Shown one piece after another: positions 12,810 through 31,569 of a stretch of 64,000 nucleotides of DNA. The notes below the pieces were generated by a model, which ran no database searches, was not told the origin of the DNA, and saw nothing but the letters and a program-made list of their open reading frames with translations. The DNA lies in the NCBI RefSeq assembly GCF_002205675.1, contig NZ_NISK01000001.1, positions 925,054-989,053 on the forward strand, read 5' to 3'. The DNA is from Sphingopyxis bauzanensis (GTDB taxonomy: Bacteria; Pseudomonadota; Alphaproteobacteria; Sphingomonadales; Sphingomonadaceae). How positions within the stretch are numbered: position 1 is the first letter of the stretch; the number at the start of each line of letters is the position of its first letter. The translations under genes were made by a program, and so were the position numbers.

Positions 12810-12826
12810 TCGGGAGGATCACCAAC

Positions 12827-16506: not shown

Positions 16507-17634
16507 ATGATATTGAGCAAGGCGATTGCCGCACTAGGCCTGCTGGCGGCGGCATCCGCCACACCCCCGGCCGAGCGCGCCCGCGAAGCCGGCGTGGTTA
16601 TCGGCGTCCTTCCTCCCGGCCCGCTCAATGCCATCACCGATGTTGACGGGGTCGAAATTGGCCACGTCACGATCGACGAAGGCAAAAACGTCCATACCGG
16701 CGTCACCGCAATCCTGCCGCACGGCGGCAACGTCTTTCGCTCGCGCGTTCCCGCCGGTTTTGTCGCCTTTAATGCGTTCGGGAAGTTTGCCGGTTCGACG
16801 CAGGTCGTCGAACTCGGTGAGATCGAGACGCCTATCCTGCTGACCAACACGCTCAACGTCCCCGAAGCCGCGGCTGGCGCGGTCGAATGGACGCTGACCC
16901 AGCCGGGCAATGAGACGGTCCGATCGGTCAACGCCGTCGTCGGCGAAACGAACGACGGTGTCCTCAACGACATCCGTCGCCGCCGCGTCACCGTCGCCGA
17001 TGCCCGGCGCGCGATCGAAGTGGCGAAAGGCGGCGCGGTCGAGGAAGGCTCGGTCGGCGCGGGTACCGGAACGGTGGCCTTCGGTTTTAAAGGCGGGATC
17101 GGCACGGCATCGCGCAGGCTGCCCAGTTCGCAGGGAGGATGGACCCTGGGGGTGCTGGTCCAGAGCAACTACGGCGGCGTCCTCAACATTGCCGGGGTGC
17201 CGGTCGGTATCAAACTGGGCCGCCACGCCTTCGCCGAGCGCGGCGATCGTGACACCGCGGATGGCTCGGTCGTCGTGGTGATCGCCACCGACGCGCCGCT
17301 GTCCGATCGCAACCTGCGCCGCATTGCCGAGCGGGCGTTCATCGGCATCGGCCGGACCGGATCGTCCTTTTCCAACGGATCGGGCGACTATGCGATTGCT
17401 TTTTCGACCAGCCCCGCGGTGCGCCGCGAAGAGGGCAGCGTGGCGATGGTGCAAATCGCCGATCTGCGCAACGAGGCGGTGTCGCTACTGTTTCAGGCGG
17501 TTGCCGAAGCAACCGAGGAAGCGGTCGTCAACTCGCTGTTCGCCGGAAAGACCGTCGAGGGGCATCGCGGCACCATCGAGCGGTTGCCGGTCGAAACGAT
17601 ATTGCCCTGGCTGGTTGCTGGCGAAAAAAAATAA
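16507..17634 (+). CDS. P1 family (DmpA-like, S58) self-processing aminopeptidase
   Basis: A 375-residue N-terminal-nucleophile hydrolase of the DmpA/BapA family (L-aminopeptidase D-Ala-esterase/amidase, beta-peptidyl aminopeptidases). A short signal-like N-terminus precedes AITDVDGVEIGHVTI. The conserved ATDAPL element follows DGSVVVVIATDAPL; by homology the chain should cleave itself between Gly253 and Ser254, making Ser254 the nucleophile. GRTGSSFSNGSGDYAIAFST near the end is another family signature. DmpA-type enzymes tolerate D- or beta-residues. ATG 16507 follows GGGGGAAAC. It converges on the D-aminoacylase-like gene, supporting a shared role in unusual peptides. Confidence 0.9.
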   Translation: MILSKAIAALGLLAAASATPPAERAREAGVVIGVLPPGPLNAITDVDGVEIGHVTIDEGKNVHTGVTAILPHGGNVFRSRVPAGFVAFNAFGKFAGSTQVVELGEIETPILLTNTLNVPEAAAGAVEWTLTQPGNETVRSVNAVVGETNDGVLNDIRRRRVTVADARRAIEVAKGGAVEEGSVGAGTGTVAFGFKGGIGTASRRLPSSQGGWTLGVLVQSNYGGVLNIAGVPVGIKLGRHAFAERGDRDTADGSVVVVIATDAPLSDRNLRRIAERAFIGIGRTGSSFSNGSGDYAIAFSTSPAVRREEGSVAMVQIADLRNEAVSLLFQAVAEATEEAVVNSLFAGKTVEGHRGTIERLPVETILPWLVAGEKK

Positions 17635-17675
17635 CGGCCCAGCCGACCTGACAGTTACAATTCTCCCGAATCTGG

Positions 17676-19229
17676 TCAGGACACCTTGGCCGCGCGCAGC
17701 AGGCGACCGGGAGCGCCCACACGCTCACCGCCTTCAAAGGCTACCCGTCCGTTCACCATGACCATGTCAAATCCTTGTGCCTGGGCAAAGGGGTCGAGGT
17801 AGGTCGAGCGCGCTTTCACGCGGTCGGGAGCGAACAGGATGAGGTCCGCCTTCATGCCCGGTCTCACCGTTCCGCGATCGGGGAGGCGCAGGATTTGCGC
17901 CGGGAGCGCAGTCGCCTTGCGGACGGCCTGCTCGATCGGGAGCCGACCGCCGTTCACGACATATTGTTCGATCAGTTTAGCATAGGTTCCGGTGGCCCGC
18001 GGGTGGCGCATCCCCGGACCCCCGTCGGTCGAGATCGCAACATCGGCATCGAGTACGAGCATATCTTGCAGCGCGTCGTCCATGGTGAAATGCGCGCCCG
18101 AGGCGCCGCCCGGACCGATCTTGATCAGGAAATCGGCATAGTGGAGCCCTGCTTCGTCCGCGGCTTGGGCCAATGTTTTTCCGGCATAAGGCGCGGTGCC
18201 GATCAGGAGCGCCGCTGGCCCGCCGCGCCGGTTCATGCGCGCGATCAGATGATCGCGCAGTTCCTGCCGTCGGCCTGCGACGATGGCGCCGTAGTTGCTG
18301 GGCGGCAAAGCCCATTCGGGGAAGAGCAGCGCAATCCCGGTATAGCCAGCGCTGTACGGATAAGCGTCCGCGGTCAGATCGATACCGGCACGGCGTTTGG
18401 CGGCAATATAGTCGAGCAGCTGGCGGGCGCGGGCTTCGCCTTTGCCAAACACTATTTTCAGGTGCGAGATGTGGGGCCGACCGGGGCGCGCAGACGCAAT
18501 CAGTTCCTCGATCGAGGCCTCGATCTCGTCGTCATTTTCGGACCGCATGTGGCTCATGACCACGCCGTCGTGGCGAGCGACGGTTTGGGCGAGGCTGGCG
18601 AGTTCGGCGCTTTCGGCATAAATGCCCGGAACATATTCCAGCCCGTAAGAGATCCCGAAGGCGCCAGCGGTCAGCTCCCAGTCAAGCTGCGCCGCCATCC
18701 GGGCGAGCGCGGCATCGTCAGGCTGGCGCACCGCGTCCGGGATGCCAGCGGCGCGGCGCAGCGTGCCGTGGCTTGCGAGCGCGGCGACATTCAGCGGCAG
18801 CGCGGCGCGATCGGCGGCCGAGAGCCACGTTCGCAGATCCCGATCGTCCCCGATGCGGGGGCCACTGCCGTCTACCCCCAGCAAAATGGTGGTCACCCCC
18901 ATGGCGAGGAAGGCATCATAGGATTGTTCCAGCGGATCGCCATGCGTGTGGGTATCGATAAATCCGGGCGCAAGGACGCGCCCTTCTCCCGGTACAAGGC
19001 GCGCGCCATCGGGGACCGACCCGCCCGGCGGCAAAATGGCAGCAACATGTTCACCGACAACGGTGACGTCGGCGCGGCAAGGCAGACTCCCGGTCCCATC
19101 GACCAACAGGACATCGCGAAAATAGGTTGGTGCGTCGGCCTGGGCAGCGGCCAGCATCGGCAGGGTTGCCAGCGTGGTAAAGGCAACAGCGCCGCCAGCG
19201 AGCTGGCGACGCGTCAAGTCACGCGGCAT
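17676..19229 (-). CDS. N-acyl-D-amino-acid deacylase family amidohydrolase, Tat-exported
   Basis: A 517-residue metal-dependent amidohydrolase. A Tat signal (TRRQLAGGAVAF, ending near AAAQA) precedes the TIM barrel. The metal site begins with APGFIDTHTHGDP, other ligand regions are MSHMRSEND and HISHLKIVFG, and the late Asp lies in ISTDGGPGMRHPRA. D-aminoacylases of this family free D-amino acids from N-acyl forms, and relatives act on D-Glu or D-Asp derivatives. The start at 19229 has an AGAGG site upstream; a longer upstream reading lacks one. If the neighbouring dgcN/dgcA pathway acts, a deacylase is expected, but the export signal argues that this one works outside the cytoplasm. Confidence 0.87.
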   Translation of the reverse strand: MPRDLTRRQLAGGAVAFTTLATLPMLAAAQADAPTYFRDVLLVDGTGSLPCRADVTVVGEHVAAILPPGGSVPDGARLVPGEGRVLAPGFIDTHTHGDPLEQSYDAFLAMGVTTILLGVDGSGPRIGDDRDLRTWLSAADRAALPLNVAALASHGTLRRAAGIPDAVRQPDDAALARMAAQLDWELTAGAFGISYGLEYVPGIYAESAELASLAQTVARHDGVVMSHMRSENDDEIEASIEELIASARPGRPHISHLKIVFGKGEARARQLLDYIAAKRRAGIDLTADAYPYSAGYTGIALLFPEWALPPSNYGAIVAGRRQELRDHLIARMNRRGGPAALLIGTAPYAGKTLAQAADEAGLHYADFLIKIGPGGASGAHFTMDDALQDMLVLDADVAISTDGGPGMRHPRATGTYAKLIEQYVVNGGRLPIEQAVRKATALPAQILRLPDRGTVRPGMKADLILFAPDRVKARSTYLDPFAQAQGFDMVMVNGRVAFEGGERVGAPGRLLRAAKVS

Positions 19230-19239
19230 ACAAACCTCT

Positions 19240-19277
19240 CTTGTCCATAACGGCGGAACGATGCCCAAATGGACAAG
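19240..19277 (-). promoter_or_regulatory. 9-bp inverted repeat upstream of the deacylase gene
   Basis: CTTGTCCAT (19240-19248) and ATGGACAAG (19269-19277) form a perfect dyad separated by 20 bp, directly in front of the deacylase start. The half-site resembles the TGTCC-TAT and AGGACAAT elements in the promoters at 20.1 and 23.2 kb. The rest of the gap up to 19455 holds nothing I recognise. Confidence 0.4.
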
Positions 19278-19455
19278 TGAATGCAATTGGACGTGGGTCC
19301 AAATTCCTGCAGAGAATGTCGAAAAGGCACGAGCGGATCCAAGCCTGTCACCGGTGTCGACCTTGGCGCACGGTTGACCTTTTTGTGGGGTCCGGTGCGG
19401 TCGCCAGGCTGGCCCGGATGGCTAGAGCCGAACGGTCGGACGTGGTGGAAAGACG

Positions 19456-20091
19456 TCAACCGTGCAGGCTCATCAGCGAATCCATCAGTCCGTCGTCGGC
19501 GCTCGAACAGACTCCCAGCACGAGCGCTTCTTCGAACCCCTCGGCGACCACATAGGCGTGGCCCATCGACGAATCGAGATAGATGCCCTGACCGGTCTTC
19601 AGCGCTACGGGGTCGTAAAATTCGGTGTGAATCTCGATCTCGCCTTCCAGCACGTAGATGAATTCCTCGCCCTGATGGCGGACGAGCTCGCCGAACTCGC
19701 TCGCGCTGTGGGCGCGGATCCGGGTGATGATCGGGATCATCCGTTTCTGGCGCAGGTCTGTACATAGATAGTGATAGTCGTAGTTGTCGGTGGTGACGCG
19801 CACCGCCTGGTCGATCGTCCCGACGCTGCGGCGGCCGGTGACACGCGGCGCGCTGTCGCTCTCATCTTCGGCGAAGAGGTCCGCCATGCGGATGCTGAGT
19901 CGCTGGCTGAGCTGCTGCAGCTTGTCATAACTCAGCGTCAGCCGGTCATGCTCGACCTTGGACAAGGTCGAAACCGGGATGCCCGATTTCGCGCTCATCT
20001 CCTTGAGCGTCCAGCCGTTTCGCGAGCGAATGCTCTTCATCACGGTGCCGAGTGTGGGCGGGGCTGCGCGAGCCGCCATCAATTTTTCCAT
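19456..20091 (-). CDS. XRE-family transcriptional regulator with C-terminal cupin
   Basis: A 211-residue regulator. Residues about 14-70 form an XRE helix-turn-helix (GWTLKEMSAKSGIPVSTLSK, then VEHDRLTLSYDKLQQLSQRL). Residues about 125-205 form a cupin_2 barrel (GEEFIYVLEGEIEIHTE, LDSSMGHAYV) that in relatives senses a small ligand such as an amino acid or polyamine. It is divergent from the serine hydrolase-dgcA operon, with the shared promoter blocks at 20099-20143 between them. I take it as the local regulator of the cluster. ATG 20091 is preceded by a weak ACATGGA. Confidence 0.88.
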   Translation of the reverse strand: MEKLMAARAAPPTLGTVMKSIRSRNGWTLKEMSAKSGIPVSTLSKVEHDRLTLSYDKLQQLSQRLSIRMADLFAEDESDSAPRVTGRRSVGTIDQAVRVTTDNYDYHYLCTDLRQKRMIPIITRIRAHSASEFGELVRHQGEEFIYVLEGEIEIHTEFYDPVALKTGQGIYLDSSMGHAYVVAEGFEEALVLGVCSSADDGLMDSLMSLHG

Positions 20092-20098
20092 TCCATGT

Positions 20099-20143
20099 TT
20101 GACAATTTTCTAATCAGGATCATTATGTCCCTATTGGGTTAAC
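20099..20143 (+). promoter_or_regulatory. Promoter/operator block 1 of the D-amino-acid cluster
   Basis: TTGACAATTTTCTAATCAGG starts at 20099 and ATGTCCCTATTGGGTTAAC at 20125. Both pieces recur, in swapped order, at 23216-23250. TTGACA could be the -35 of the rightward operon. The block sits in the divergent region between the XRE-cupin gene and the hydrolase gene, the natural place for its operator. Confidence 0.6.
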
Positions 20144-20220
20144 GATTGTTGACCCTTGGTAAGGCGTCGCGCGGCTTGCTGCAAGGTCAGACAGGGCGGG
20201 CCAGACAAAAGGGGAAAGTG

Positions 20221-22200
20221 ATGCGTTTCATCCGCAAGGCGATGATCGGACTGGCGGCGCTCGCCGCGCTGCCACTCGCGGCGCAGGGGCCGCTGCCCGC
20301 GCCGACGGCGAAGGAAGTGGAAACTGCTGCGGCGACCGCACCCGCGGCGCCGACTAGCCCGGTGACGCTCGACGCCGCCGACCTTGAGGCGTGGATGGAC
20401 GGCTATCTGCCCTACGCGCTCGAGCGCGCGCGCATCCCCGGTGCGGTTGTTGTGGTCGTGCGCGGCAATGAGGTCGTGCTGCAAAAGGGCTATGGCTTTG
20501 CCGATGTTGCCAAGCGTGCGCCGGTGCTGCCCGAAACGACGATGTTCCGACCCGGTTCGGTGTCGAAACTGCTGACCTGGACCGCGGTGATGCAGCAGGT
20601 CGAGGCGGGCAAGATCGATCTCGACAAGGATGTGAACGCCTATCTCGATTTCAAGATTCCGGCCTATCAGGGCAAGCCGGTCACGATGCGTAACATCATG
20701 ACGCATACTGCGGGGTTCGAGGAATCGGTGCGTCACCTGATCAGCAGCGACCCCAAGGCGGTGTTGACGTTGAAGCAGCAGATGCCGATGGCGTTGCCGC
20801 AGCGTGTTTTTGTGCCGGGGACGACCCCCGCTTACTCCAATTACGCCACCGCGCTCGCGGGCTATATCGTCGAGCGCGTCAGCGGCGAGCCGTTCGACAA
20901 TTATATTGAAAATCATATTTTTACACCGCTTGGTATGACGCATTCGACCTTCCGCCAGCCGCTGCCTGCACGCCTCGCGCCGCATATGGCCAAGGGCTAT
21001 CCCGACGTGACGCAAAAGGCGAAACCGTTCGAGATCGTCATCCCGGGACCGGCGGGAAGCCTGTCGGCGAGTGGCGCCGACATGGGTAAATTCATGATCG
21101 CGCATCTGAACGAGGGGGCCGGGCTTTTGAAGCCCGAGACCGCAAAACAGATGCACGATTTCAAGGCGCCCGGCGTTGGCCCGCTCAACAGCATGGCGCT
21201 TGGTTTCTACGAACAATGGGTCAACGGTCGGCGCGCGATCGCGCATGGCGGCGATACCGTCTGGTTCCACTCCTATCTGTGGCTGTTCCCCGAGGATGAC
21301 ATCGGCGTTTATGTGTCGATGAACAGCGCCGGGACGCAGGGCGATGCGGGGGCGGTGCGTAGTGCGCTGTTCCATAAATTTGCCGATCGTTACCTCCCCG
21401 GCGAAGACAAGACAGGAACCGTAGACGCCAAGACCGCCGCTCAACATGCGCAGATGATGGTCGGCAATTATGTCAGCAGCCGGGGGTCGTTCACCAACTT
21501 CATGAGCCTGCTCGGGCTGTTGGGGCAGGCGACCATCTCGCTGACCGAAGACGGCAAGATCAGCTTCCCGGCGCTCGACGGCTTGGGTGCCGGGGCGCGC
21601 GACTGGGTCGAAGTCGAGCCGTTCGTGTGGCGCGACCGCGGCACGGGCGAGCGCCTCGCGGCCGAGGTCAAGGACGGCCGCGTCGTGCGCTTCAGCGTCG
21701 ATGCCGGTTCGCCGTTCATGGTGTTCGAACCCGCGCCTGCCAGCGTCAATGCGGCATGGCTTAATCCGGCGCTGATTGCGGCGCTCGGCATCGTTCTGCT
21801 CGCCGCGCTGGCGTGGCCGGTACGCGCGCTGGTACGGCGCAGCTTCAAGGCCGATTTCGCGCTCGAAGGTAAATCGCGCCGCGTCTATCGGCTTTCGCGG
21901 ATGTTCGCCTGGCTGGTGCTGGCGGCGCTGGCGGGCTGGCTCGGCCTGATCGCCGCTTTCTCGGCCGATATAGGTAGCTTGGGCGGCCCGCTCGACTGGC
22001 TGATCCATCTGTTGCGTGTCCTGACCCCGGTGGCGTCCTTCGGCTTGCTGGCGACGGCGGGCTGGCACTTGTGGCTGACGATCAAGGACAAGCGCCGCTG
22101 GACGATGAAGCTCGGCGCGGTGCTGCTGGTGCTCGCGGCGCTGGTGCTGGTGTGGGTGACACTCGCCTTCAACCTCTATGGCTTTGGAATGGTTTATTGA
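20221..22200 (+). CDS. S12 serine hydrolase with C-terminal membrane domain
   Basis: A 659-residue two-part protein. After a signal peptide (residues 1-20) comes a beta-lactamase-fold domain with Ser113-Val-Ser-Lys116 (SxxK), a Tyr-Ser-Asn motif in TPAYSNYATA and an HGG triad in IAHGGDTVWF. From about residue 515 there are four or five hydrophobic helices, including LIAALGIVLLAALAWPV and LGAVLLVLAALVLVWVTLAF. The catalytic part should face the periplasm while the tail sits in the inner membrane. S12 enzymes include D-aminopeptidases and D,D-carboxypeptidases. ATG 20221 follows GGGGAAAG. Its stop overlaps the dgcA start by 1 bp. Confidence 0.88.
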   Translation: MRFIRKAMIGLAALAALPLAAQGPLPAPTAKEVETAAATAPAAPTSPVTLDAADLEAWMDGYLPYALERARIPGAVVVVVRGNEVVLQKGYGFADVAKRAPVLPETTMFRPGSVSKLLTWTAVMQQVEAGKIDLDKDVNAYLDFKIPAYQGKPVTMRNIMTHTAGFEESVRHLISSDPKAVLTLKQQMPMALPQRVFVPGTTPAYSNYATALAGYIVERVSGEPFDNYIENHIFTPLGMTHSTFRQPLPARLAPHMAKGYPDVTQKAKPFEIVIPGPAGSLSASGADMGKFMIAHLNEGAGLLKPETAKQMHDFKAPGVGPLNSMALGFYEQWVNGRRAIAHGGDTVWFHSYLWLFPEDDIGVYVSMNSAGTQGDAGAVRSALFHKFADRYLPGEDKTGTVDAKTAAQHAQMMVGNYVSSRGSFTNFMSLLGLLGQATISLTEDGKISFPALDGLGAGARDWVEVEPFVWRDRGTGERLAAEVKDGRVVRFSVDAGSPFMVFEPAPASVNAAWLNPALIAALGIVLLAALAWPVRALVRRSFKADFALEGKSRRVYRLSRMFAWLVLAALAGWLGLIAAFSADIGSLGGPLDWLIHLLRVLTPVASFGLLATAGWHLWLTIKDKRRWTMKLGAVLLVLAALVLVWVTLAFNLYGFGMVY

Positions 22201-23204
22201 TGGCGGCGCAAATGACGCAAGAACTGACGCTCGACCTGCGGGTCGAGCGTTTTCCCTACCACCAGCCGTTCCGTATTTCGGGGCATGTCTTCACCGAAAC
22301 CGCGCTGCTCGTCGCCGAACTGTCCGACGGCACCCATGTCGGGCGCGGCGAGGGGGCGGGGGTCTATTATCTGGGTGATGACATCGGCCATATGCTGGCC
22401 GAAGCGACGCGCGTCCGTAACGCAATCGAGCGCGGCGCAGCGCGCGCGGATTTGCAGCAATTGCTGCCGCCGGGCGGCGCACGCAATGCGCTCGACTGTG
22501 CCTATTGGGATCTGGAGGCGAAGCAGGCGGGACGGCCGGTGTGGGAGCTGGCGGGATTAAAGCCGCCGCGCGCGCTGCGTTCAACCTTGACGCTTGGCGC
22601 CGATAGTGCGGGCAATATGGCGAAGGCGGCGCTGGCGATCGATCCCGAGGCACCGATCAAGGTCAAGCTGACCGGTGATCTGAGTGACGACATCGCCCGT
22701 GTCGTCGCGATCCGCACTGCACGGCCGCATGCGTGGATCGGGGTCGATGCCAATCAGGGCTATGACATTGCCACGCTGGCGAAGTTGCTGCCGGTGCTGG
22801 TCGATACCAAGGTTGCGCAGCTTGAACAGCCGCTCAAGCGCGGGCGCGAAGCCGATCTCGACGGACTGAAACGTCCGCTGCCCTTTGTCGCCGACGAAAG
22901 CGCGGTGACGCTCGCCGACACCGCGACGCTCGTCGGGCGCTTCGATGTGGTCAACATCAAGCTCGATAAATGCGGCGGGCTGACCGAGGGGCTGGCGATC
23001 GCGCGGCAGGCTCGGAAACTCGGGCTCGAGGTGATGGTCGGCAACATGATGGGGACGAGCCTGTCGATGGCGCCGTCGTTCGTGTTGGGCCAGCTGTGCG
23101 ACATCGTTGATCTCGATGGACCGACCTTCCTGGCGCGCGATCGGGTGCCGGCCGTCGAATATCGGGGCGGGATGATACATTGCCCCGCAGAAATTTGGGG
23201 ATAG
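22200..23204 (+). CDS. dgcA: N-acetyl-D-Glu racemase DgcA-like (enolase superfamily, dipeptide epimerase type)
   Basis: A 334-residue enolase-superfamily enzyme. Catalytic features are the K-x-K pair at 154/156 (IKVKLTGD), metal ligands in GVDANQGYD (Asp183), QLEQP and VADESAV, and the second base Lys in VNIKLDKCGG. The family covers L-Ala-D/L-Glu epimerases, used for peptidoglycan salvage, and DgcA, which racemises N-acetyl-D-Glu to N-acetyl-L-Glu. The presence of a DgcN homologue 3.4 kb downstream makes me favour the DgcA role; dipeptide epimerase remains the alternative. It is translationally coupled to the S12 hydrolase upstream. No signal peptide, so cytoplasmic. Confidence 0.85.
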   Translation: MAAQMTQELTLDLRVERFPYHQPFRISGHVFTETALLVAELSDGTHVGRGEGAGVYYLGDDIGHMLAEATRVRNAIERGAARADLQQLLPPGGARNALDCAYWDLEAKQAGRPVWELAGLKPPRALRSTLTLGADSAGNMAKAALAIDPEAPIKVKLTGDLSDDIARVVAIRTARPHAWIGVDANQGYDIATLAKLLPVLVDTKVAQLEQPLKRGREADLDGLKRPLPFVADESAVTLADTATLVGRFDVVNIKLDKCGGLTEGLAIARQARKLGLEVMVGNMMGTSLSMAPSFVLGQLCDIVDLDGPTFLARDRVPAVEYRGGMIHCPAEIWG

Positions 23205-23215
23205 ATGACAATTAT

Positions 23216-23250
23216 ATGTCCTATATGGGTTGACAATTTTCTGATTAGGA
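23216..23250 (+). promoter_or_regulatory. Promoter/operator block 2 of the D-amino-acid cluster
   Basis: ATGTCCTATATGGGTTGAC (23216-23234) runs directly into TTGACAATTTTCTGATTAGG (from 23230). Each matches its counterpart at 20099-20143 at nearly all positions, but the two elements are in reverse order and overlap here. A downstream AGGACAAT is the inverse of the TGTCCTAT type half-site. TTGACA may be the -35 for the dipeptidase-to-dipeptidase operon starting at 23293. Confidence 0.6.
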
Positions 23251-23292
23251 CAATAGTCGTCATATTGTAACTTGGTTGAGAGGGAGGCTGGG

Positions 23293-24435
23293 ATGACCGG
23301 GTCATTCGCAGTAACGCGCCGTGCGATCATCGCGGGCGCGGTCGGCGCCGCCTTGTCTGCGCCAATGGTGAACAAGGGAAGCTATGCGTTTGCCGCGGCG
23401 CCAGGGCGCGCCTATTCGCGCCGCGCAGTCGATCTGGTTGCCTCGTCGCTCGTCATCGACATGCTGGCGCCGCTCAAGATCACGCTGTCGGCCGACTATA
23501 TCACCCACCGTTTGACCGATGCCGAGGCGGCCGAGTTCAAGGCCAGCGGCATCACCGGCTTTCACAACGCCTATGGTCTCGGCGGTCCCGGTGCAAAAGA
23601 GCAGGCGCTGACCTTTCTCGCGGGTTGGCAGGGCTTTGCCGGGCGCAATAGCCATGTGTTCACGCTGGTCGATGGCGTTGCCGATCTCGACCGCGCCAAG
23701 GCTGATAAGAAATGCGCGGTCATCATGGGCATCCAGAATGCTGAGCATTTCGAGAAGGTCGAGGATGTCGCGCTGTTCCGCCGCCTCGGCCTGCGCTGCG
23801 CGCAACTAACGTACAACAGCCAGAATTTAATCGGTTCGGGCAGCACCGAACGGATCGACGGCGGCGTGAGCGACTATGGCGCGGCGATCATCGCCGAGAT
23901 GGAAAAGCAGCACATGCTCGTTGACGTCTCGCATTGCGGCGACCAGACAACGCTCGATGCCATCGCGATCGCCAAGGGGCCGATCGCGATCACCCACAGC
24001 AACGTGCGCGCACTGGTCGATCATCCGCGGGTCAAGACCGACGCAGCGATCAAGGCGCTTGCGGCCAAGGGCGGGGTGATGGGGATAACCGGCGTCCGCA
24101 TGTTCGTAAGCACCACCGATCCGACCAATGTCGGGCATATGGCCGACCATATCGACCATGTCGCCAAGCTCGTCGGGATCGATCATGTCGGGATCGGATC
24201 GGACGCCGATTTGCATGGCTACGATGACATGAAGCCCGACGAATATGCGCTGCTCAAGGGCGCCTACAAGGGCAGCTACGCCTTTCGCGACAAGATCGAC
24301 ATCGACGGTTTCGACCATCCTTTGAAGGTCTTTGACCTGACCGAGGAACTGATCCGCCGAGGATATTCAAACGACAACATCACGGCCGTGTTAGGGGGCA
24401 ATTTCCGCCGCCTGCTGGCGCAAGTCTGGGGGTAA
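23293..24435 (+). CDS. M19 (renal/membrane dipeptidase) family protein lacking the HxD motif, Tat signal
   Basis: A 380-residue dipeptidase-family protein with a Tat-like signal (VTRRAIIAGAVGAAL). Conserved M19 phrases are QLTYNSQNLIGSG, DVSHCGDQTTLDA, ITHSNVRALVDHPR and DHVGIGSDAD. The usual first metal motif D-x-H-x-D is not seen: the strand reads LVIDMLAPLK. The bridging Glu region also reads GIQNAEHFE. Half of the binuclear zinc site therefore appears altered, unlike in the paralogue at 30391. It may use one metal, bind another substrate or be inactive. ATG 23293 follows GAGGGAGGC. It leads the second operon, 4 bp before the TonB receptor. Confidence 0.85.
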   Translation: MTGSFAVTRRAIIAGAVGAALSAPMVNKGSYAFAAAPGRAYSRRAVDLVASSLVIDMLAPLKITLSADYITHRLTDAEAAEFKASGITGFHNAYGLGGPGAKEQALTFLAGWQGFAGRNSHVFTLVDGVADLDRAKADKKCAVIMGIQNAEHFEKVEDVALFRRLGLRCAQLTYNSQNLIGSGSTERIDGGVSDYGAAIIAEMEKQHMLVDVSHCGDQTTLDAIAIAKGPIAITHSNVRALVDHPRVKTDAAIKALAAKGGVMGITGVRMFVSTTDPTNVGHMADHIDHVAKLVGIDHVGIGSDADLHGYDDMKPDEYALLKGAYKGSYAFRDKIDIDGFDHPLKVFDLTEELIRRGYSNDNITAVLGGNFRRLLAQVWG

Positions 24436-24439
24436 GACA

Positions 24440-26626
24440 ATGAACAAGGGACTTTATTTCGCGGCAAGCATGGCCGCATTGATCGCCGCAATGCCGGCGC
24501 AGGCGCAGGAACCGGGTGCGGTTGAGGCGGCGGGCGAAATCGTCGTCACCGCGCAAAAGCGCGTCCAGAATGTCCAGGACGTGCCGATCTCGATCGCCGT
24601 TGTGAATGGTGAAGAGCTGCAACAACAGGGGTCGGCATCGCTGGTCGACTATGCGGGTTACGTCCCCGGCATGAATGTCAGCAATAGCGGCACGCCCGGT
24701 CAGACGACGATCACGCTGCGCGGTGTCGCACCGCTGAACTCCAGCCAGACCGTCGGCATCTATCTCGACGACGCGCCAGTGGGCTCCAGCGCGATCTACA
24801 ACCGCGCTGGGGCGTTCACGATCGACCTGATGCCCTATGACCTGGAACGGATCGAAGTGCTCAAGGGGCCGCAGGGCACGCTCTATGGCGCCAGCTCGAT
24901 CGGCGGGCTGGTGAAATATGTCACCGTTCAGCCGAACACCAATGCGTTCAGCGTCAAGGCGGGGGTCGAAGGCTTCGCGATCAAAGGCGGTGACGGGCTT
25001 GGCTGGGGCGCGCAGGTGATGGTCAATGTGCCGATCGTGCAGGACAAGCTGGCGGTCAGCGGCAGCTTTGCCTGGCGCAGCACCCCGGGCTGGGTCGACA
25101 GCATCAACAATGCCGCGCTGAAGGATCAGAATGATTATGAACAGCGCGGCGGCCGTGCGGCGCTGCTGTGGACACCGACGCCCGAATTCAGCGTGAAGCT
25201 CGCCGGGATTTGGCAGTCGCTCGATTCCGACGGCAATGGTCTTTACGCCGCCGATCTGACCGGCGCGCGGCTCGGCGACGGACGTTCGTTCAACAATTTT
25301 GTCCCCGAATCTTACGACGTCGATCTCGACTATTATTCGGCAACGCTCGATTATGATTTCGGCGCGGCGACGCTGACCTCGGCGACGACTTACAGCAAGA
25401 CGCAGAGCGCACAGGTGCAGGATGCGAGCTACGCCTTTGGCGTGCTCTTCCCATTCCTTACCAACCCCCCGATCGCGCCGGGCATCACGCCTTTCTTGCT
25501 TGATCTGGGCTTGAAAAAATGGACGCAGGAAGTGCGGCTTGCGTCGCCGAGTGGCGGACGGTTCGAATGGTTGATCGGCGGTTTCTTCACCGATGAAACG
25601 ACCAGCAACGCGCAGTTGGTCCGCTCGTTCGACATGGCGGGCAATCCGATCCCCGGTCTTGATCCGCTGGCGATCGTCGGCCTGCCCGCGACTTACAAGG
25701 AATATGCGATTTTTGGCAACGGCACCTTCAAGCTCAGCGAGCACTTCGAAATCACCGGCGGCCTGCGCTGGGCCCGCAACAAGCAGTCCTTCCGCCAGAT
25801 CAGCTCGGGCGCGATCGTGCCGCAGGCCGACGATCCCGGCAAATCGGCCGAAAGCGTGTTCACTTACTCGATCAGCCCGCAATTCCACATCAATGATGAC
25901 GCGATGCTCTATGCGCGCCTCGCAACCGGTTATCGCCCCGGCGGACCGAACGTCATTGTTCCCAACGTCCCGCCGACGGTCGATGCCGACCGGATGAAGA
26001 ACTATGAAATCGGGCTGAAGGCCGACTTTGCCGATCGTTTGGTTTCGGTCGATGTCGCGCTCTTCCTGATGGACTGGACCGACATCCAGGTTGTGCGTTC
26101 GTTCGGCGGCGTATCGGGCGGGGCGAACGGCGGCAAGGCGCGGAGCAAAGGGATCGAGGGCAGCTTTGCGCTACGTCCGACCCCCGGCCTGACGATCAGC
26201 GCCACCGGCAGCTACACCGACGCCACGCTCAGCGAGGATGTGCCCGACATCAGCGGCGCCGATGGCGACCGCCTGCCCGCCGTACCGAAGTTCAGCGGCG
26301 CGCTGCGCGCCGATTATGAATTCGAACTGGGCGGGGGCAACAAGGGCAGTTTTGGCGCCGGTGTCCGCCACGCCAGCAACCGCCTGTCGCTGGTCGAAAG
26401 CGATCCGCTAGTCGCTACGGCCAAGCCTTACACATCGGTCGATCTCAACGCCTCGATCACCTTCAACGATCATTGGACATTGCGCGCCTATGCTCGCAAC
26501 CTGCTCGACAATCAGGGTGAGATGGCGCGCTCGACCTTCGCCAACGGGCTCAATCAGCCGAGCTTCCTTGGCATTTCGCCGCTCCAGCCGCGCACGGTGG
26601 GTGTCGCACTCGACCTGGCCTTTTGA
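24440..26626 (+). CDS. TonB-dependent receptor (D-amino-acid/peptide cluster)
   Basis: A 728-residue outer membrane receptor. The signal peptide ends at PAQAQ, the plug starts at EIVVTAQKRVQNVQDVPISI and includes YDLERIEVLKGPQGTLYGAS, and the barrel ends in LQPRTVGVALDLAF with a terminal Phe. The type is close to sphingomonad receptors for organic compounds. Its place among dipeptidases and D-Glu enzymes suggests a ligand made of peptides or muropeptide fragments, which is inference. It lies 4 bp after the dipeptidase and 20 bp before dgcN. Confidence 0.92.
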   Translation: MNKGLYFAASMAALIAAMPAQAQEPGAVEAAGEIVVTAQKRVQNVQDVPISIAVVNGEELQQQGSASLVDYAGYVPGMNVSNSGTPGQTTITLRGVAPLNSSQTVGIYLDDAPVGSSAIYNRAGAFTIDLMPYDLERIEVLKGPQGTLYGASSIGGLVKYVTVQPNTNAFSVKAGVEGFAIKGGDGLGWGAQVMVNVPIVQDKLAVSGSFAWRSTPGWVDSINNAALKDQNDYEQRGGRAALLWTPTPEFSVKLAGIWQSLDSDGNGLYAADLTGARLGDGRSFNNFVPESYDVDLDYYSATLDYDFGAATLTSATTYSKTQSAQVQDASYAFGVLFPFLTNPPIAPGITPFLLDLGLKKWTQEVRLASPSGGRFEWLIGGFFTDETTSNAQLVRSFDMAGNPIPGLDPLAIVGLPATYKEYAIFGNGTFKLSEHFEITGGLRWARNKQSFRQISSGAIVPQADDPGKSAESVFTYSISPQFHINDDAMLYARLATGYRPGGPNVIVPNVPPTVDADRMKNYEIGLKADFADRLVSVDVALFLMDWTDIQVVRSFGGVSGGANGGKARSKGIEGSFALRPTPGLTISATGSYTDATLSEDVPDISGADGDRLPAVPKFSGALRADYEFELGGGNKGSFGAGVRHASNRLSLVESDPLVATAKPYTSVDLNASITFNDHWTLRAYARNLLDNQGEMARSTFANGLNQPSFLGISPLQPRTVGVALDLAF

Positions 26627-26646
26627 GCGGATTGGAGTTGGAAACG

Positions 26647-27687
26647 ATGAACGCGCCCACCGGCAGGCTGGAGAGCAGCCTGACCCTGCCGCAGCCCTAT
26701 CTACTGTTCCTCGGCGACACGACCGAGGCGGGTTATGCCAAGACCGCCTTCGGTCTGGCCGACTGGGCGGCGGATCGCTGCGTTGGCGAGCTGGCGATCG
26801 GCGGCTGCACCGTCACCACCGGCCTGCCGCCGATGTCGCCCGCGCAGGCGCGGGCGGCGGGGGCGCGGTCGCTGGTGATCGGAGTGGCCAACCAGGGCGG
26901 GGTGATTGGCGACAGCTGGATCGCCGCGCTGGTCGAGGCGATGGAGGCGGGTCTCGACATCGTCAGCGGGCTGCACGTCCGGCTGGCGAGCCTGCCTGCG
27001 CTGGCCGAGGCGGCAAAGCGCACCGGGCAGCGGCTCATCGACGTGCGGACGCCGCCGCCGTCGATTCCGATCGGCAACGGCCGCAAGCGCAGCGGCAAAC
27101 GGTTGCTGACCGTCGGCACCGACTGCGCGCTCGGCAAGAAATATACCGCGCTGGCGCTGCATCGCGCGTTCGTCGAACGCGGCATCGATGCCGACTTTCG
27201 CGCCACCGGACAGACGGGCATCATGATTGCAGGCGGCGGGATGCCGATGGACGCGGTCGTTTCGGATTTCGAGGCAGGAGCGGCGGAAATCCTCAGTCCC
27301 GATGCGCCTGCTGACCATTGGGATTTGATCGAGGGGCAGGGGTCGATCTTCAACCCGGCTTATGCCGCGGTATCGCTCGGTTTGCTGCACGGCAGCCAGC
27401 CCGATGTGTTTGTCGTGTGCCACGACCCGACGCGCAAGGTGATCCTGGGCATGGAGAGCTTTGCGCTGCCGTCGATCGAGGAGGTTATCGACCTGACGAT
27501 CCGCCTCGGCAGCCGGACCAATCCGGCGATCCGCTGCGGCGGGGTCAGCCTCAACACGTCGAGCTATGACGCCGAAGCTGCCGAAGCGCTGATGGCGGGG
27601 GAGCGCCGGCGGCTCGGCCTGCCGGTCACCGATCCGATCCGCGGCGGCGCATCATTCGACGCGCTTGTCGAAAATATTCTCGCGTGA
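26647..27687 (+). CDS. dgcN: D-Glu N-acetyltransferase DgcN-like (DUF1611)
   Basis: A 346-residue DUF1611 protein. The N-terminal half has a Rossmann-like region ending in RLIDVRTPPPSIPIGNGRK; the second half has a P-loop-like GTDCALGKKYTAL and the conserved GQTGIMIAGGG. DUF1611 proteins named DgcN are reported to acetylate D-glutamate as the first step of D-Glu catabolism together with DgcA. The start at ATG 26647 has GGAG and GGAAAC upstream; a TTG at 26623 overlapping the receptor stop is less likely. Its stop overlaps the permease GTG start. No signal peptide, so cytoplasmic. Confidence 0.87.
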   Translation: MNAPTGRLESSLTLPQPYLLFLGDTTEAGYAKTAFGLADWAADRCVGELAIGGCTVTTGLPPMSPAQARAAGARSLVIGVANQGGVIGDSWIAALVEAMEAGLDIVSGLHVRLASLPALAEAAKRTGQRLIDVRTPPPSIPIGNGRKRSGKRLLTVGTDCALGKKYTALALHRAFVERGIDADFRATGQTGIMIAGGGMPMDAVVSDFEAGAAEILSPDAPADHWDLIEGQGSIFNPAYAAVSLGLLHGSQPDVFVVCHDPTRKVILGMESFALPSIEEVIDLTIRLGSRTNPAIRCGGVSLNTSSYDAEAAEALMAGERRRLGLPVTDPIRGGASFDALVENILA

Positions 27688-28820
27688 GTGTGGGCGAGAC
27701 GGGGAGGAGGTCGAGCTGGTTCCAGCGCTTCCTGCTGCCCGGACTGGCGCTGAAAGCGGTGATCATCGGCGGCGGCTATGCCACTGGCCGCGAACTCGCC
27801 GAATATTTTGTGCCATCGGGTCCGTGGGGCGGGCTGTCAGCGATGCTGATGGCGACCTTGATCTGGAGCGTCGTCGCCGCGGTCACCTTCGCTCTGGCGC
27901 GCAAGATGAGCGCCTATGACTATCGTGCCTTTTTTCAGGGGCTGCTTGGCCCGGGATGGGTCGCGTTCGAGCTGGCCTATCTGATCTTCGTCATCCTGAT
28001 CCTTGCCGTGTTCGGCGCCGCGGCCGGCGCGATCGGCGCCGCGACCTTTGGCTGGCCCGAACTTGCCGGTTCCATAGTGCTTGCGATCAGCATCATCGCT
28101 TTCACGGCGTTCGGCACCGACACCGTCGAGACATTGTTCAAATATGCCTCGATGCTGATCTATGCGGTTTATGCGCTGTTCTTGGTCTTCGCACTGAGCA
28201 GTTTCGGCGGTCTGATTGCTGTGGGGTTTGCCAATGCGCCGCCGCCGTCGGGCAATTGGGTTGCGGGCGGATTGACCTATGCCAGTTATAACATCGTCGG
28301 CGCGGTGATCATTCTGCCGGTGCTGCGCCACCTGACCAGCCAGCGCGATGCGGTGGTTGCGGGGATCATCGCCGGACCGCTGACGATGCTGCCCGCGATC
28401 CTGTTCTTTGTCGCGATGATGGCCTTTTATCCAGCGATCGGTGCCGAGACGCTGCCGTCCGATTTCCTGCTCCGCCAGATGGCAGTGCCGGGGTTCCACA
28501 TCCTGTTCCAGCTGATGATTTTTGCCGCGTTGCTTGAAAGCGGGGTCGGCGCGATCCATGCGATCAACGAGCGGGTGTCGGGGGTCGTCGAAGCACGTGG
28601 TCGCCCGCCGCTCGGCACCAGCGCGCGCGCCGCGATCGGCGGCGTCATTTTAATCGGCTGCATGTACGTCGCGGCGCGCATTGGCCTCGTCGATCTGATC
28701 GCCAGCGGGTACCGTTTCCTCGCTTGGCTGTTCCTGATCGTCTTTGTCGCGCCCTTGCTGACCATCGGCGTCTGGCGCCTGTTGCGCCCTGCTCCCGTTC
28801 GAATGGAGACCGTCCCATGA
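27684..28820 (+). CDS. YkvI-like multi-spanning membrane permease
   Basis: A 378-residue protein with about ten transmembrane helices. The N-terminal GLALKAVIIGGGYATGRELAEYF is characteristic of YkvI-type proteins, distant relatives of the APC amino-acid transporters. It begins with GTG overlapping the dgcN stop (GTGA), and its own stop overlaps the next gene (ATGA), so it belongs firmly to the operon. As the only inner-membrane carrier in the cluster it is the best candidate to move the amino acid or dipeptide into the cytoplasm. Its substrate is not known from sequence. Confidence 0.82.
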   Translation: MSVGETGRRSSWFQRFLLPGLALKAVIIGGGYATGRELAEYFVPSGPWGGLSAMLMATLIWSVVAAVTFALARKMSAYDYRAFFQGLLGPGWVAFELAYLIFVILILAVFGAAAGAIGAATFGWPELAGSIVLAISIIAFTAFGTDTVETLFKYASMLIYAVYALFLVFALSSFGGLIAVGFANAPPPSGNWVAGGLTYASYNIVGAVIILPVLRHLTSQRDAVVAGIIAGPLTMLPAILFFVAMMAFYPAIGAETLPSDFLLRQMAVPGFHILFQLMIFAALLESGVGAIHAINERVSGVVEARGRPPLGTSARAAIGGVILIGCMYVAARIGLVDLIASGYRFLAWLFLIVFVAPLLTIGVWRLLRPAPVRMETVP

Positions 28821-30394
28821 AAGCCGTCCGCCTGCTTGCTCTCTCATTGATGCTGTCGGTTGCCGCACCCGCCTGGGCTGACCCGCCCACGGACATCGTC
28901 GAAACGGTCGAAACCTTGCGCCAGAAGATCGGCGCGCCCGGCGTATCGATCGCGATCGTCGAGGATGGCGAGACGACGCTCTCGCGCGGCTGGGGCGTCC
29001 GCAAGATTGGCGAGCGTGCGCCGGTCGACAAACAAACATTGTTCCAGACCGGATCGACCGGAAAGGCGATGACAGCGGCGGCGCTGGCGATCCTCGTCGA
29101 CGAAGGCAAGATCGCATGGGACGATCCGGTCATCAAACATATGCCGTGGTTTCGCATGCATGACGCGTGGGTGACGCGCGAGATCACGATCCGCGACCTG
29201 CTCGTTCACCGCAGCGGGCTGGGGCTGGGGCAGGGCGATCTGATGTTCGTGCCGCGCACCAACCTCACGCGCAAGCAGACCGTGGAACGTGTCGCTTACC
29301 TCAAGCCGCAAACCAGTTTTCGCTCGGCTTATGCCTATGACAACATCCTCTATGCGGTCGCGGGGCAGTTGATCGAGGAGGTCACCGGCAAGACATGGGA
29401 AGTGTTCATGCGCGAACGCCTCCTGCGCCCCGGCGGGATGAAGGACGGGACGACCGACAGCGAGGACCGTTTCCGCATTCCCAACCGGTCATGGCCGCAC
29501 GCGCGACTGTCGGGGCCGCTGCGCGGTCTCGGCCCGCAGCAGGCGCTGAACGAACGCGACGAGCTGGGCCGGAATGGTGCGCCCGCGGGCGGGCTCGCGC
29601 TGAGCGCCGACGACATGGCGGCGTGGCTCAAGATCCAGCTTGCGCACGGCGCGCTACCCAATAGCAAACGGCTCTTCAGCGAAGCGCAAGCCAAGCAAAT
29701 GTGGGCACCCGTCACGCCGATGCCCATCTCTTCGCTCCCCGACAGTCTGAAACCTGCGCAGCCGAACCAGCAGGCCTATGCGCTGGGTTGGAACGTCCAG
29801 GATTATCGCGGCCACCGCATCATTCAACACGGCGGCGGGGTGTTCGGATCGATCACCCGCGTCGTGATGATCCCCGACAAAAATGTCGGCTTTGCGATCA
29901 TGATGAACAGCGAGGACAGCGGCATGCTGCTTGGGCTGACCTATGAGCTCCTCGATCATTATCTCGATCAGCCGGATTTTGGCTGGATCGCCAAATGGGA
30001 GGATTGGTACCAATCGCGGCTCGCGGGCGGGGTCGAATATCTAAAACAGACGCAGGCCGCGCCGGTGAAGTCAGGACCGTCGCTGGCGCTGTCGGGCTAT
30101 GCCGGGCGCTACCGCGATCCCTGGTATGGCGATGTCGTGATCGGGTCGGCGACAACCGGCCTGACGATCGACTTTACCTCGACACCGCGGATGGCGGGGC
30201 GGCTCAAACATTGGCAATATGACAGCTTCGTCACCGATTTCGACGATCCTGCCATCGAACCCGCTTATGTAACGTTCGCGCTCGATGCGGAGGGCAAGAT
30301 CATCGGGGTGACAATGAAGGCGGTCAGCAAGATTGCCGATTTCAGCTGGGATTATCACGATCTCGACCTGAAGCCGGTGAAGGACAAGAAGTGA
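28817..30394 (+). CDS. S12 serine hydrolase, secreted
   Basis: A 525-residue beta-lactamase-fold hydrolase with a signal peptide ending at PAWA (residue 20). The nucleophile motif is Ser80-Thr-Gly-Lys83, the second motif is Tyr-Asp-Asn in YAYDNILYAVAG, and the third is IIQHGGGVFG. A C-terminal domain of about 130 residues (from GYAGRYRDPWYGDV) resembles the extra beta domain of DUF3471-type or D-aminopeptidase-like S12 proteins. Unlike the first S12 gene of the cluster it has no membrane tail. It overlaps both neighbours by 4 bp. Confidence 0.88.
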   Translation: MKAVRLLALSLMLSVAAPAWADPPTDIVETVETLRQKIGAPGVSIAIVEDGETTLSRGWGVRKIGERAPVDKQTLFQTGSTGKAMTAAALAILVDEGKIAWDDPVIKHMPWFRMHDAWVTREITIRDLLVHRSGLGLGQGDLMFVPRTNLTRKQTVERVAYLKPQTSFRSAYAYDNILYAVAGQLIEEVTGKTWEVFMRERLLRPGGMKDGTTDSEDRFRIPNRSWPHARLSGPLRGLGPQQALNERDELGRNGAPAGGLALSADDMAAWLKIQLAHGALPNSKRLFSEAQAKQMWAPVTPMPISSLPDSLKPAQPNQQAYALGWNVQDYRGHRIIQHGGGVFGSITRVVMIPDKNVGFAIMMNSEDSGMLLGLTYELLDHYLDQPDFGWIAKWEDWYQSRLAGGVEYLKQTQAAPVKSGPSLALSGYAGRYRDPWYGDVVIGSATTGLTIDFTSTPRMAGRLKHWQYDSFVTDFDDPAIEPAYVTFALDAEGKIIGVTMKAVSKIADFSWDYHDLDLKPVKDKK

Positions 30395-31569
30395 AGCACC
30401 TCGCAATCCTGCTGGCTGCCACCGCGCTATCCGCCTGTTCGACCGGCGAACAAGCGGCGAAAGCTCCCGAGGCACCGCTGCACAGCCGGATGCTCGTGCT
30501 CGACACGCACCTCGACACCCCGCTGCATTTCGAGCGGCAGGGGTGGAGCTTTGCCGACCGCCACGGCCTGATCGACGACATGGTCCAACTCGATATCCCG
30601 CGGATGAAGGACGGCAATCTCGATGGCGGTTTCTTTGTCATCTACACCGAGCAGGGCGCGCTCGACGCAAAAGGATATGCCGATGCCCTGGCGTTCGCCC
30701 GCGCGCGGTCGGACCTGATCGACGCGACGATCACCAAGCATGGCGATGCCATCGGTGCTGCGCGGACCGTCGCCGACGCCCGGACGCTGAGCAAGGCTGG
30801 TAAGCTCATCGCGTATAAGTCGATGGAAAACAGCTATCCGCTTGGCGAGGATGTCACGCTGCTCGCCGAGTTCCACCAAAAAGGCGTCCGCATGGCGGGG
30901 CCGGTGCATTCAAAGACCAACCAGTTCGCCGACAGCGCGACCGGAGAGGCGCGGTGGAAAGGCCTCAGCCCGCTCGGCAAGCAGTGGGTGGCCGAAATGA
31001 ACCGGCTGGGCATCGTCATCGACGCCAGCCATGCGTCCGATGCCGCGTTCGATCAGCTGCTGGCGTTGTCGAAATATCCGATCATCCTGTCGCATTCGAG
31101 CCTGCGCTCAGCCAACGATCATCCGCGCAACCTGGATGAGGGGCGGCTGAAAGCACTGGCGGCGAAGGGCGGCGCGATGTGCATTTCGACGATCTTCATG
31201 TCGGATATGAACATGACCCCGGCGCGCGGCGAATTGTTCGGCCAATATGAGCGTATTGGCACCTTGTCGCCCGCGCAGCAGGCCGAGCTCAATCGCAAGT
31301 GGCGCGAACTCGACAAGACCGAGCCGCTGTGGGCGGCTGATTTCGAGCAATATATGGCAATGGTGCTGCGCGCGATCGAAGTCGGCGGCGTCGATCATAT
31401 CTGCTTTGGCGCCGACTGGGACGGCGGCGGCGGGCTGGCCGGGATCGAGGATATTTCGGCGCTGCCCAAGGTTACCGAGCGCTTGAAGTCTGCGGGTTAC
31501 TCCGACGCCGATATCGAAAAGATGTGGAGCGGCAATATCCTGAGGGTGCTGGCGGCGCAGCGCGGATAG
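30391..31569 (+). CDS. M19 membrane dipeptidase, lipoprotein
   Basis: A 392-residue dipeptidase. The N-terminus is a lipoprotein signal with lipobox LSAC (Cys16), so it is anchored to a membrane facing the periplasm. The metal site is complete: VLDTHLDTPLH, the SMENSYPLG Glu region, DASHASDAAFD, ILSHSSLRSANDHPR and CFGADWDG. Bacterial M19 enzymes split L-D dipeptides, including types found in peptidoglycan stems. It ends the operon; 31570-31669 is a plain intergenic gap. The GTG start overlaps the previous stop. Confidence 0.9.
   Translation: MKHLAILLAATALSACSTGEQAAKAPEAPLHSRMLVLDTHLDTPLHFERQGWSFADRHGLIDDMVQLDIPRMKDGNLDGGFFVIYTEQGALDAKGYADALAFARARSDLIDATITKHGDAIGAARTVADARTLSKAGKLIAYKSMENSYPLGEDVTLLAEFHQKGVRMAGPVHSKTNQFADSATGEARWKGLSPLGKQWVAEMNRLGIVIDASHASDAAFDQLLALSKYPIILSHSSLRSANDHPRNLDEGRLKALAAKGGAMCISTIFMSDMNMTPARGELFGQYERIGTLSPAQQAELNRKWRELDKTEPLWAADFEQYMAMVLRAIEVGGVDHICFGADWDGGGGLAGIEDISALPKVTERLKSAGYSDADIEKMWSGNILRVLAAQRG

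Follow-up and report, generated by a model that had tools for sequence, protein, structure and literature searches.

A conserved Sphingopyxis operon that joins divergent DgcN-like and DgcA-like proteins to putative peptide-uptake and hydrolase genes, and its probable substrate

The DgcN/DgcA pathway of D-glutamate (D-Glu) comprises the activities EC 2.3.1.312 and EC 5.1.1.25. Its founding paper reportedly appeared in the ISME Journal in 2023, and to our knowledge a route of the DgcN/DgcA type is known only for D-Glu. Two publications (PMC10845958; PMC11747546) also name D-Glu as the pair's substrate. Here we describe a locus related to this pathway in a stretch of 64,000 nucleotides from Sphingopyxis bauzanensis (contig NZ_NISK01000001.1, positions 925,054 to 989,053; hereafter the window, whose first letter is position 1 for all coordinates below). 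The main cluster, at 19456-31569, is a real and conserved operon, probably of two units, and its borders and probable substrate differ from those of an initial annotation of this DNA, which had proposed a single regulon at 16507-31569 that imports D-Glu-containing peptides and turns D-Glu into L-Glu. Like the described pathway, the operon contains both protein families, the catalytic motifs of DgcA are retained, and N-acetylation followed by racemisation is presumed. Unlike it, the window pair falls under the curated cut-offs, lacks a set of conserved basic residues, and is joined to a receptor, S12 and M19 hydrolases and a permease with a predicted LeuT fold, with the canonical pair of the same genome lying separately. 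On balance, we lean towards the reading that peptides with D-amino acids are the likely imports of the operon, and that its predicted role is to turn a neutral, probably hydrophobic D-amino acid into the L-form by way of N-acetylation and racemisation. No description of the operon, or of a DgcN/DgcA system with another substrate, was among the matches listed in the open-access literature searched.

The operon has a divergent gene for a putative XRE-cupin regulator on the minus strand (19456-20091; PF01381 and PF07883 above cut-off) and eight genes on the plus strand. These encode S12a, a beta-lactamase-like serine hydrolase (20221-22200; PF00144, 215.8 bits); a DgcA-like racemase/epimerase of the enolase superfamily (22200-23204; NF042940), here assigned to type II (non-canonical) as opposed to type I (canonical); M19a, a membrane-dipeptidase-family protein with a Tat-like leader (23293-24435; PF01244, 241.8 bits); a TonB-dependent outer-membrane receptor (24440-26626; PF00593 and PF07715); a type II DgcN-like (DUF1611) protein, which starts at a TTG at 26623 or an ATG at 26647 and ends at 27687 (PF07755/PF17396; NF041892); a permease with a predicted LeuT/APC fold (27684-28820); S12b, a serine hydrolase with a DUF3471 domain and a signal-like N-terminus (28817-30394; PF00144 and PF11954); and M19b, a lipoprotein-type M19 dipeptidase (30391-31569; PF01244, 286.5 bits). 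Five of the seven joins in the plus-strand block overlap or nearly touch (1-4 bp): S12a and DgcA overlap by 1 bp, M19a and the receptor are separated by 4 bp, and the last three joins, from DgcN through the permease and S12b to M19b, are 4-bp overlaps each. A sixth join, the 4-bp overlap of receptor and DgcN, holds only with the TTG start at 26623. DgcA and M19a are uncoupled by an 88-bp gap that contains a second promoter-like motif, described below. Every gene named in the initial annotation was recovered in its place.

Comparison with 60 genomes of relatives, 35 of them Sphingopyxis, revealed that this arrangement is widespread. A DgcN homologue was present in 44 of the 60, and one at least 84% identical occurred in 29 of the 35 Sphingopyxis genomes, accompanied in all 29 by the permease and S12b. 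The gene order in Sphingopyxis is XRE-cupin (minus strand), S12a, DgcA, M19a, receptor, DgcN, permease, S12b, M19b, and occurrence of the block in 29 of 35 relatives is far beyond chance. Exceptions among the 29 loci were few. The XRE-cupin gene was at the same position in 26 and was not found in L069 and L072; DgcA was not found in L035 and L065, nor M19a in L038 and L041; M19b was not found in L035, whose stretch reaches the contig end. In one further locus (G018), the third without the XRE-cupin gene at this position, the contig is cut upstream of DgcN. The operon was also identified in named records of Altererythrobacter, Pelagerythrobacter, Blastomonas, Sphingomonas and Sphingosinicella, and reduced or rearranged versions in some gammaproteobacteria (Rudaea, Luteimonas and Steroidobacter).

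The two enzymes of the presumed pathway are related to DgcN and DgcA at the family level, as the initial annotation had it, but neither reaches the curated equivalog cut-off: the DgcN-like protein scored 450.5-450.7 bits with NF041892 (cut-off 480) and the DgcA-like protein 357.6 bits with NF042940 (cut-off 400). Two further non-canonical DgcN proteins (434 and 461.1 bits) and one non-canonical DgcA (378.7 bits) were also below these values. The genome has three DUF1611 genes, and a canonical pair elsewhere in it (C22) passes both cut-offs (DgcN 518.6 against 480, DgcA 407.8 against 400) and adjoins a LysR regulator and an SDF-family symporter of the glutamate/dicarboxylate type. A class-wide search placed DgcA above the cut-off in 48 of 142 genomes; the best 30 of these 48, numbered as E. 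coli YcjG, had R21 and R/K24 without exception and a P-Y-x-R-Y loop in 29 (VPNTRY in the remaining one), and DgcN adjoined DgcA in 28. In the window protein the aligned residues are G21, F24 and a GVYYLGD loop. Canonical DgcN has R29 and R255 (7xrj numbering) in 28 of 28 rows, and in the window protein these are replaced by A49 and L275. Across 120 DgcN sequences of the window clade, position 29 was Ala in 119 and position 255 was Leu in 110, otherwise Ile, Met or Val; 101 other positions were conserved and identical in the canonical and window-clade groups. The DgcA-like protein keeps the KxK motif, the D-E-D metal ligands, the second Lys and the DxD motif and matches PF13378 and PF02746, which places it among the racemases/epimerases of the muconate-cycloisomerase type within the enolase superfamily. 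The replacement of conserved basic residues in both enzymes argues against D-Glu, apparently the less likely substrate, and suggests that the D-amino acid handled is neutral and probably hydrophobic. This reading also draws on the Thermotoga maritima epimerase described below, with its arginine-free loop and its reported acceptance of dipeptides that end in a hydrophobic residue.

The most probable of the alternatives, although we consider it unlikely, is that D-Glu peptides, for example stem fragments of peptidoglycan, are what the operon scavenges, and that this pair turns D-Glu into L-Glu by means of a pocket of another construction. The NCBIfam models for DgcN and DgcA do score best for the window pair, D-Glu is the substrate in the literature cited above, M19 is a dipeptidase family, and a glutamate dehydrogenase gene lies at 34040-38758. 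Against this, the window pair has other residues at four basic positions of the canonical pair, both cut-offs are missed in a genome that has a canonical pair elsewhere, the operon has no NlpC/P60 or M14 domain for the gamma-D-Glu-diaminopimelate bond, and of the loci compared only that of the near-identical relative has the dehydrogenase close by. A similar comparison applies to the recycling of peptidoglycan peptides with YcjG (1jpd), which likewise places a homologous epimerase amid hydrolase and uptake genes; the window enzyme is without the loop arginines and PYPRYGE, its operon has a DUF1611 homologue, and an MpaA-type (M14) domain is absent from it. Of the initial interpretation, the conserved locus with receptor, hydrolases, permease and a DgcN/DgcA-type pair stands and fits scavenging of D-amino-acid peptides, but the conversion of D-Glu to L-Glu is not upheld, given the missing R29/R255, R21, R/K24 and P-Y-x-R-Y loop and the separate canonical pair.

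Whether the two enzymes change together was examined in pairs of nearby genes. From 274 DgcN matches, 212 had a readable nearest DgcA, and 177 distinct pairs were retained after exclusion of pairs more than 6.5 kb apart and of identical pairs; matches with internal stops had also been dropped. R/K was present at both DgcN 255 and DgcA 24 in 60 pairs and at neither in 116, a match in 176 of 177; in the single discordant pair DgcA has Ser24 and a KPTPRY loop. Lys was counted as charged (two pairs with Lys255), and in one of the rows with neither, the DgcA position falls in a gap. Position 255 separates the two types in this set. Where DgcN had Ala29 with Leu, Ile or Met255 (88 pairs), DgcA had G21 in 87 and F24 in 85, the others being two Ile and one gap. 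A naive Fisher p of 6e-47 for the R/K match was set aside because the rows are related. A 108-row tree of DgcN, from which the two residue columns had been left out, contained one large clade of non-R/K sequences (53 rows, SH-aLRT 93), and three non-R/K rows fell on the canonical side, each paired with a non-R/K DgcA. The neighbourhoods of the types also differed in a profile search (E up to 1e-5; 80 type II and 18 type I representatives): S12 genes were near 58/80 type II vs. 1/18 type I, M19 genes near 34/80 vs. 0/18, and the window-type permease near 45/80 vs. 0/18. By tblastn, S12 genes were near 0/18 type I representatives.

A third residue class was considered, in which an acidic DgcN 255 and an acidic DgcA loop residue would form a code for basic D-amino acids. 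This was rejected as a result and retained as a lead: the acidic loop residue occurred in 5/9 pairs with acidic 255 vs. 1/168 others (naive p 5e-7), and only one of three supported independent contrasts agreed, the other two having no difference. In loci L080 and L084, DgcN Asp255 is paired with the DgcA loop AGVDYL; L080 adjoins an AA_permease/AA_permease_C transporter and L084 a DAO-family FAD oxidoreductase and an ornithine-cyclodeaminase-family gene. These two loci are a possible basic D-amino acid branch.

The DgcA-like protein could instead be an epimerase of hydrophobic dipeptides rather than an N-acetyl-amino-acid racemase, its DgcN-like neighbour having another target, which seems to us a rather improbable reading. 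The L-Ala-D/L-Glu epimerase family (PRK15129) was its second-best match, at 236 bits, though short of the cut-off of 343. Its DxD motif does not decide the matter because canonical DgcA has DxD too. The Thermotoga maritima dipeptide epimerase (2zad) has a similar arginine-free loop in the same frame (PFHITGSVSSES vs. PFRISGHVFTET), and it is reported to accept dipeptides with hydrophobic C-terminal residues (PMC13338154). Its overall similarity to the window protein is lower than that of 1jpd (76 bits vs. 198.5), and we know of no DgcN partner for the T. maritima enzyme. Against the dipeptide reading, the DgcN and DgcA genes lie at most 6.5 kb apart in the 116 non-canonical pairs, as in the canonical N-acetyl-D-Glu pathway.

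The other products of the operon are consistent with the processing of D-amino-acid peptides. Both S12a and S12b combine a PF00144 match with the SxxK, YxN and HxG motifs (at 113, 205 and 342 in S12a and at 80, 174 and 338 in S12b). S12a has a signal-like N-terminus and, by hydropathy, at least three C-terminal membrane segments; its PDB matches were S12 proteins including D-Ala-D-Ala carboxypeptidases. An S12 domain followed by C-terminal membrane segments is also the layout of the membrane-anchored peptidase ClbP, but the best S12a matches were other S12 proteins (2qmi and 7spn). S12b matched ClbP chains (E 6e-22) and D-peptidases. Matches of both proteins to class C beta-lactamase families were far below the cut-offs. 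The initial annotation had counted two dipeptidases, and of these M19b is well founded: HxD was present in 56 of 56 rows and LDTHLDTP in 52, the protein matched 2rag with 392.6 bits, and it has an LSAC lipobox-like leader. M19a is uncertain; IDMLAPLK replaces LDTHLDTP in 42 of 45 rows, so that the HxD metal ligands are lost, and the M19b Glu corresponds to a Gln in the commonest rows. Its two His and the last Asp motif are retained in most rows, and its nearest PDB entry is 2i5g. The permease had been called YkvI-like. It gave no match in a Pfam and NCBIfam search, but a transporter fold of the LeuT/APC type is confidently predicted for it.

The receptor gene is a slot that is exchanged between otherwise similar operons. 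In 189 pairs of loci with DgcN at least 90% identical, drawn from 63 A-type loci, receptor identity was below 60%, or no long match existed, in 84. The corresponding counts were 2/189 for S12a, 0/181 for DgcA, 0/151 for M19a, 0/189 for the permease, 0/186 for S12b and 4/186 for M19b. Clustered at 70% identity, the receptors of the 63 loci formed 12 groups. Two causes would each account for this exchange, a difference in ligands or the evasion of phages or bacteriocins; together with the constant core, it suggests a single D-amino-acid route that is supplied by different peptides or through different receptor alleles. We regard it as very improbable that the operon is chiefly a resistance or competition system, in which the receptor and the S12 and M19 hydrolases import and destroy non-ribosomal peptides with D-residues and catabolism is secondary: ClbP-type peptidases among the S12 relatives in the PDB and receptor exchange, which selection by peptides, phages or bacteriocins would be expected to bring about, would suit it, but the low beta-lactamase scores do not, although no library of defence or resistance families was searched, and a DgcN/DgcA-type pair and a permease of amino-acid-transporter fold behind the same motif suit catabolism better.

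That motif resembles a promoter/operator. Its first copy, P1 (TTGACAATTTTCTAATCAGGATCATTATG), is at 20099..20127 on the plus strand upstream of S12a, and the second, P2 (23217..23254, plus strand), is in the DgcA-M19a gap before M19a, where the motif copy itself (TTGACAATTTTCTGATTAGGACAAT) is at 23230-23254 and inverted-repeat arms are at 23217-23224 and 23245-23252 (TGTCCTA/TTAGGACA). The P1 region could be aligned over Sphingomonadales and Steroidobacter, and the phylogenetic footprint upstream of S12a was TTGACAATTYTCYAATCAGGATCATTATG. With up to three mismatches, the common pattern had exactly two matches in the 4.26-Mb genome, P1 and P2, and the reversed motif, as a control, had none in the same genome. 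In a survey of 62 other A-type loci with the 25-base core (up to three mismatches), 60 had a copy upstream of S12a, 55 had one between S12a and the receptor, and 54 had both; there was one additional match over all surveyed loci and none in 20 shuffled loci. P2 was observed to be retained upstream in several loci without M19a. The XRE-cupin gene is the obvious candidate for the regulator of P1 and P2, and 20221-31569 probably comprises two transcription units.

The occurrence of the motif only at 20099 and 23230 limits the unit to 20221-31569 and excludes two genes that the initial annotation had included in its single regulon, those for an S58 (DmpA-like) aminopeptidase (16507-17634, plus strand) and a D-aminoacylase-like amidohydrolase (17676-19229, minus strand), neither of which is preceded by it. 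Their membership was also rejected by comparison, as they adjoin the operon only here and in one near-identical relative (G010) among the 29 loci, three of whose stretches end before the S58 position. In another genome (G021) an S58 orthologue, 92% identical, is on a different contig from the operon, and in many other Sphingopyxis a different amidohydrolase (~30% identical) occupies that slot. The glutamate dehydrogenase at 34040-38758 was rejected as a functional partner on its distribution, given above. Upstream, at 10468-15898, the window has another peptide-uptake-like set, with an SDF symporter, an S9/alpha-beta hydrolase and a second TonB receptor.

For the favoured function, conversion of a neutral D-amino acid from imported peptides, the following course can be envisaged. 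The XRE-cupin protein would sense an inducer and control P1 (S12a-DgcA) and P2 (M19a to M19b). The receptor would take a peptide into the periplasm, where the S12 and M19 hydrolases, with their export-type leaders, may release a D-amino acid or an L-D dipeptide that the permease would move inward. The DgcN relative would then acetylate the D-amino acid, the DgcA relative would racemise the N-acetyl-D-amino acid, and a deacetylase encoded outside the operon would release the L-amino acid.

Several observations weigh against this proposal. No deacetylase gene lies within the operon, M19a is without the HxD metal ligands, and the LeuT fold is common also to metal (NRAMP) and other transporters. 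The role of R29/R255 and R21/R24 in binding the glutamate side chain is one that we infer, and for the loop it draws on the E. coli and Bacillus subtilis L-Ala-D/L-Glu epimerases, in which a loop arginine binds the Glu side chain. Position 29 by itself is not enough to tell the types apart: 17 of the 177 pairs keep R29 although R/K is missing at 255, and in two canonical pairs the residue at 29 is His or Val. On the DgcN tree there are three changes, one of them forced by supported branches, and a sign test is without power; most of the charge match goes back to a single old divergence, and the match, though consistent, has few independent events behind it. The neighbourhood test favours type II because its profiles were built from window-like genes, and the sole type I case with an S12 gene is the canonical pair of this same genome, with the S12 gene 2.3 kb downstream.

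Related modules were observed elsewhere. A third DgcN module of the same genome (L055, C21:802001-822000) has genes for an S15 peptidase, an M19 protein, DgcN, two S12-like proteins, an amidohydrolase and an aminotransferase; its DgcN is 69% identical to the window protein, and its 20-kb stretch has no DgcA match. An orphan DgcA-like gene in the same genome (L312:9089-10081, C23) has a mixed loop (AKT with K24, and TPVYYLGED), and the matches in its 19-kb stretch included no DgcN homologue. Four Sphingopyxis loci (L047, L048, L052 and L053) represent a different module type, in L047 with the order XRE-cupin, S12, DgcN, permease, alpha/beta hydrolase, amidohydrolase, S12, DgcA, an Xaa-Pro-dipeptidase-like amidohydrolase (below its cut-off) and S12. 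One genome of the same family (G143) has seven DgcN homologues (L232-L238).

We hypothesize, with the chances about even, that DgcN/DgcA is just one branch within a wider class of pathways that first acetylate and then racemise D-amino acids, in which matching residues in the two enzymes would tell the side chain: Arg/Lys for D-Glu, aliphatic or aromatic residues for neutral or hydrophobic D-amino acids, as in this operon, and acidic residues for basic ones. Sphingomonads would hold several such branches, each with its own receptor and D-specific hydrolases. If this is true, a route known to us only for D-glutamate would be a general means of D-amino-acid reclamation in bacteria, and names based on subtype would have to be given to many genes now labelled N-acetyl-D-Glu racemase or DUF1611. 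It would also offer a way to learn what the TonB receptors of this slot import.

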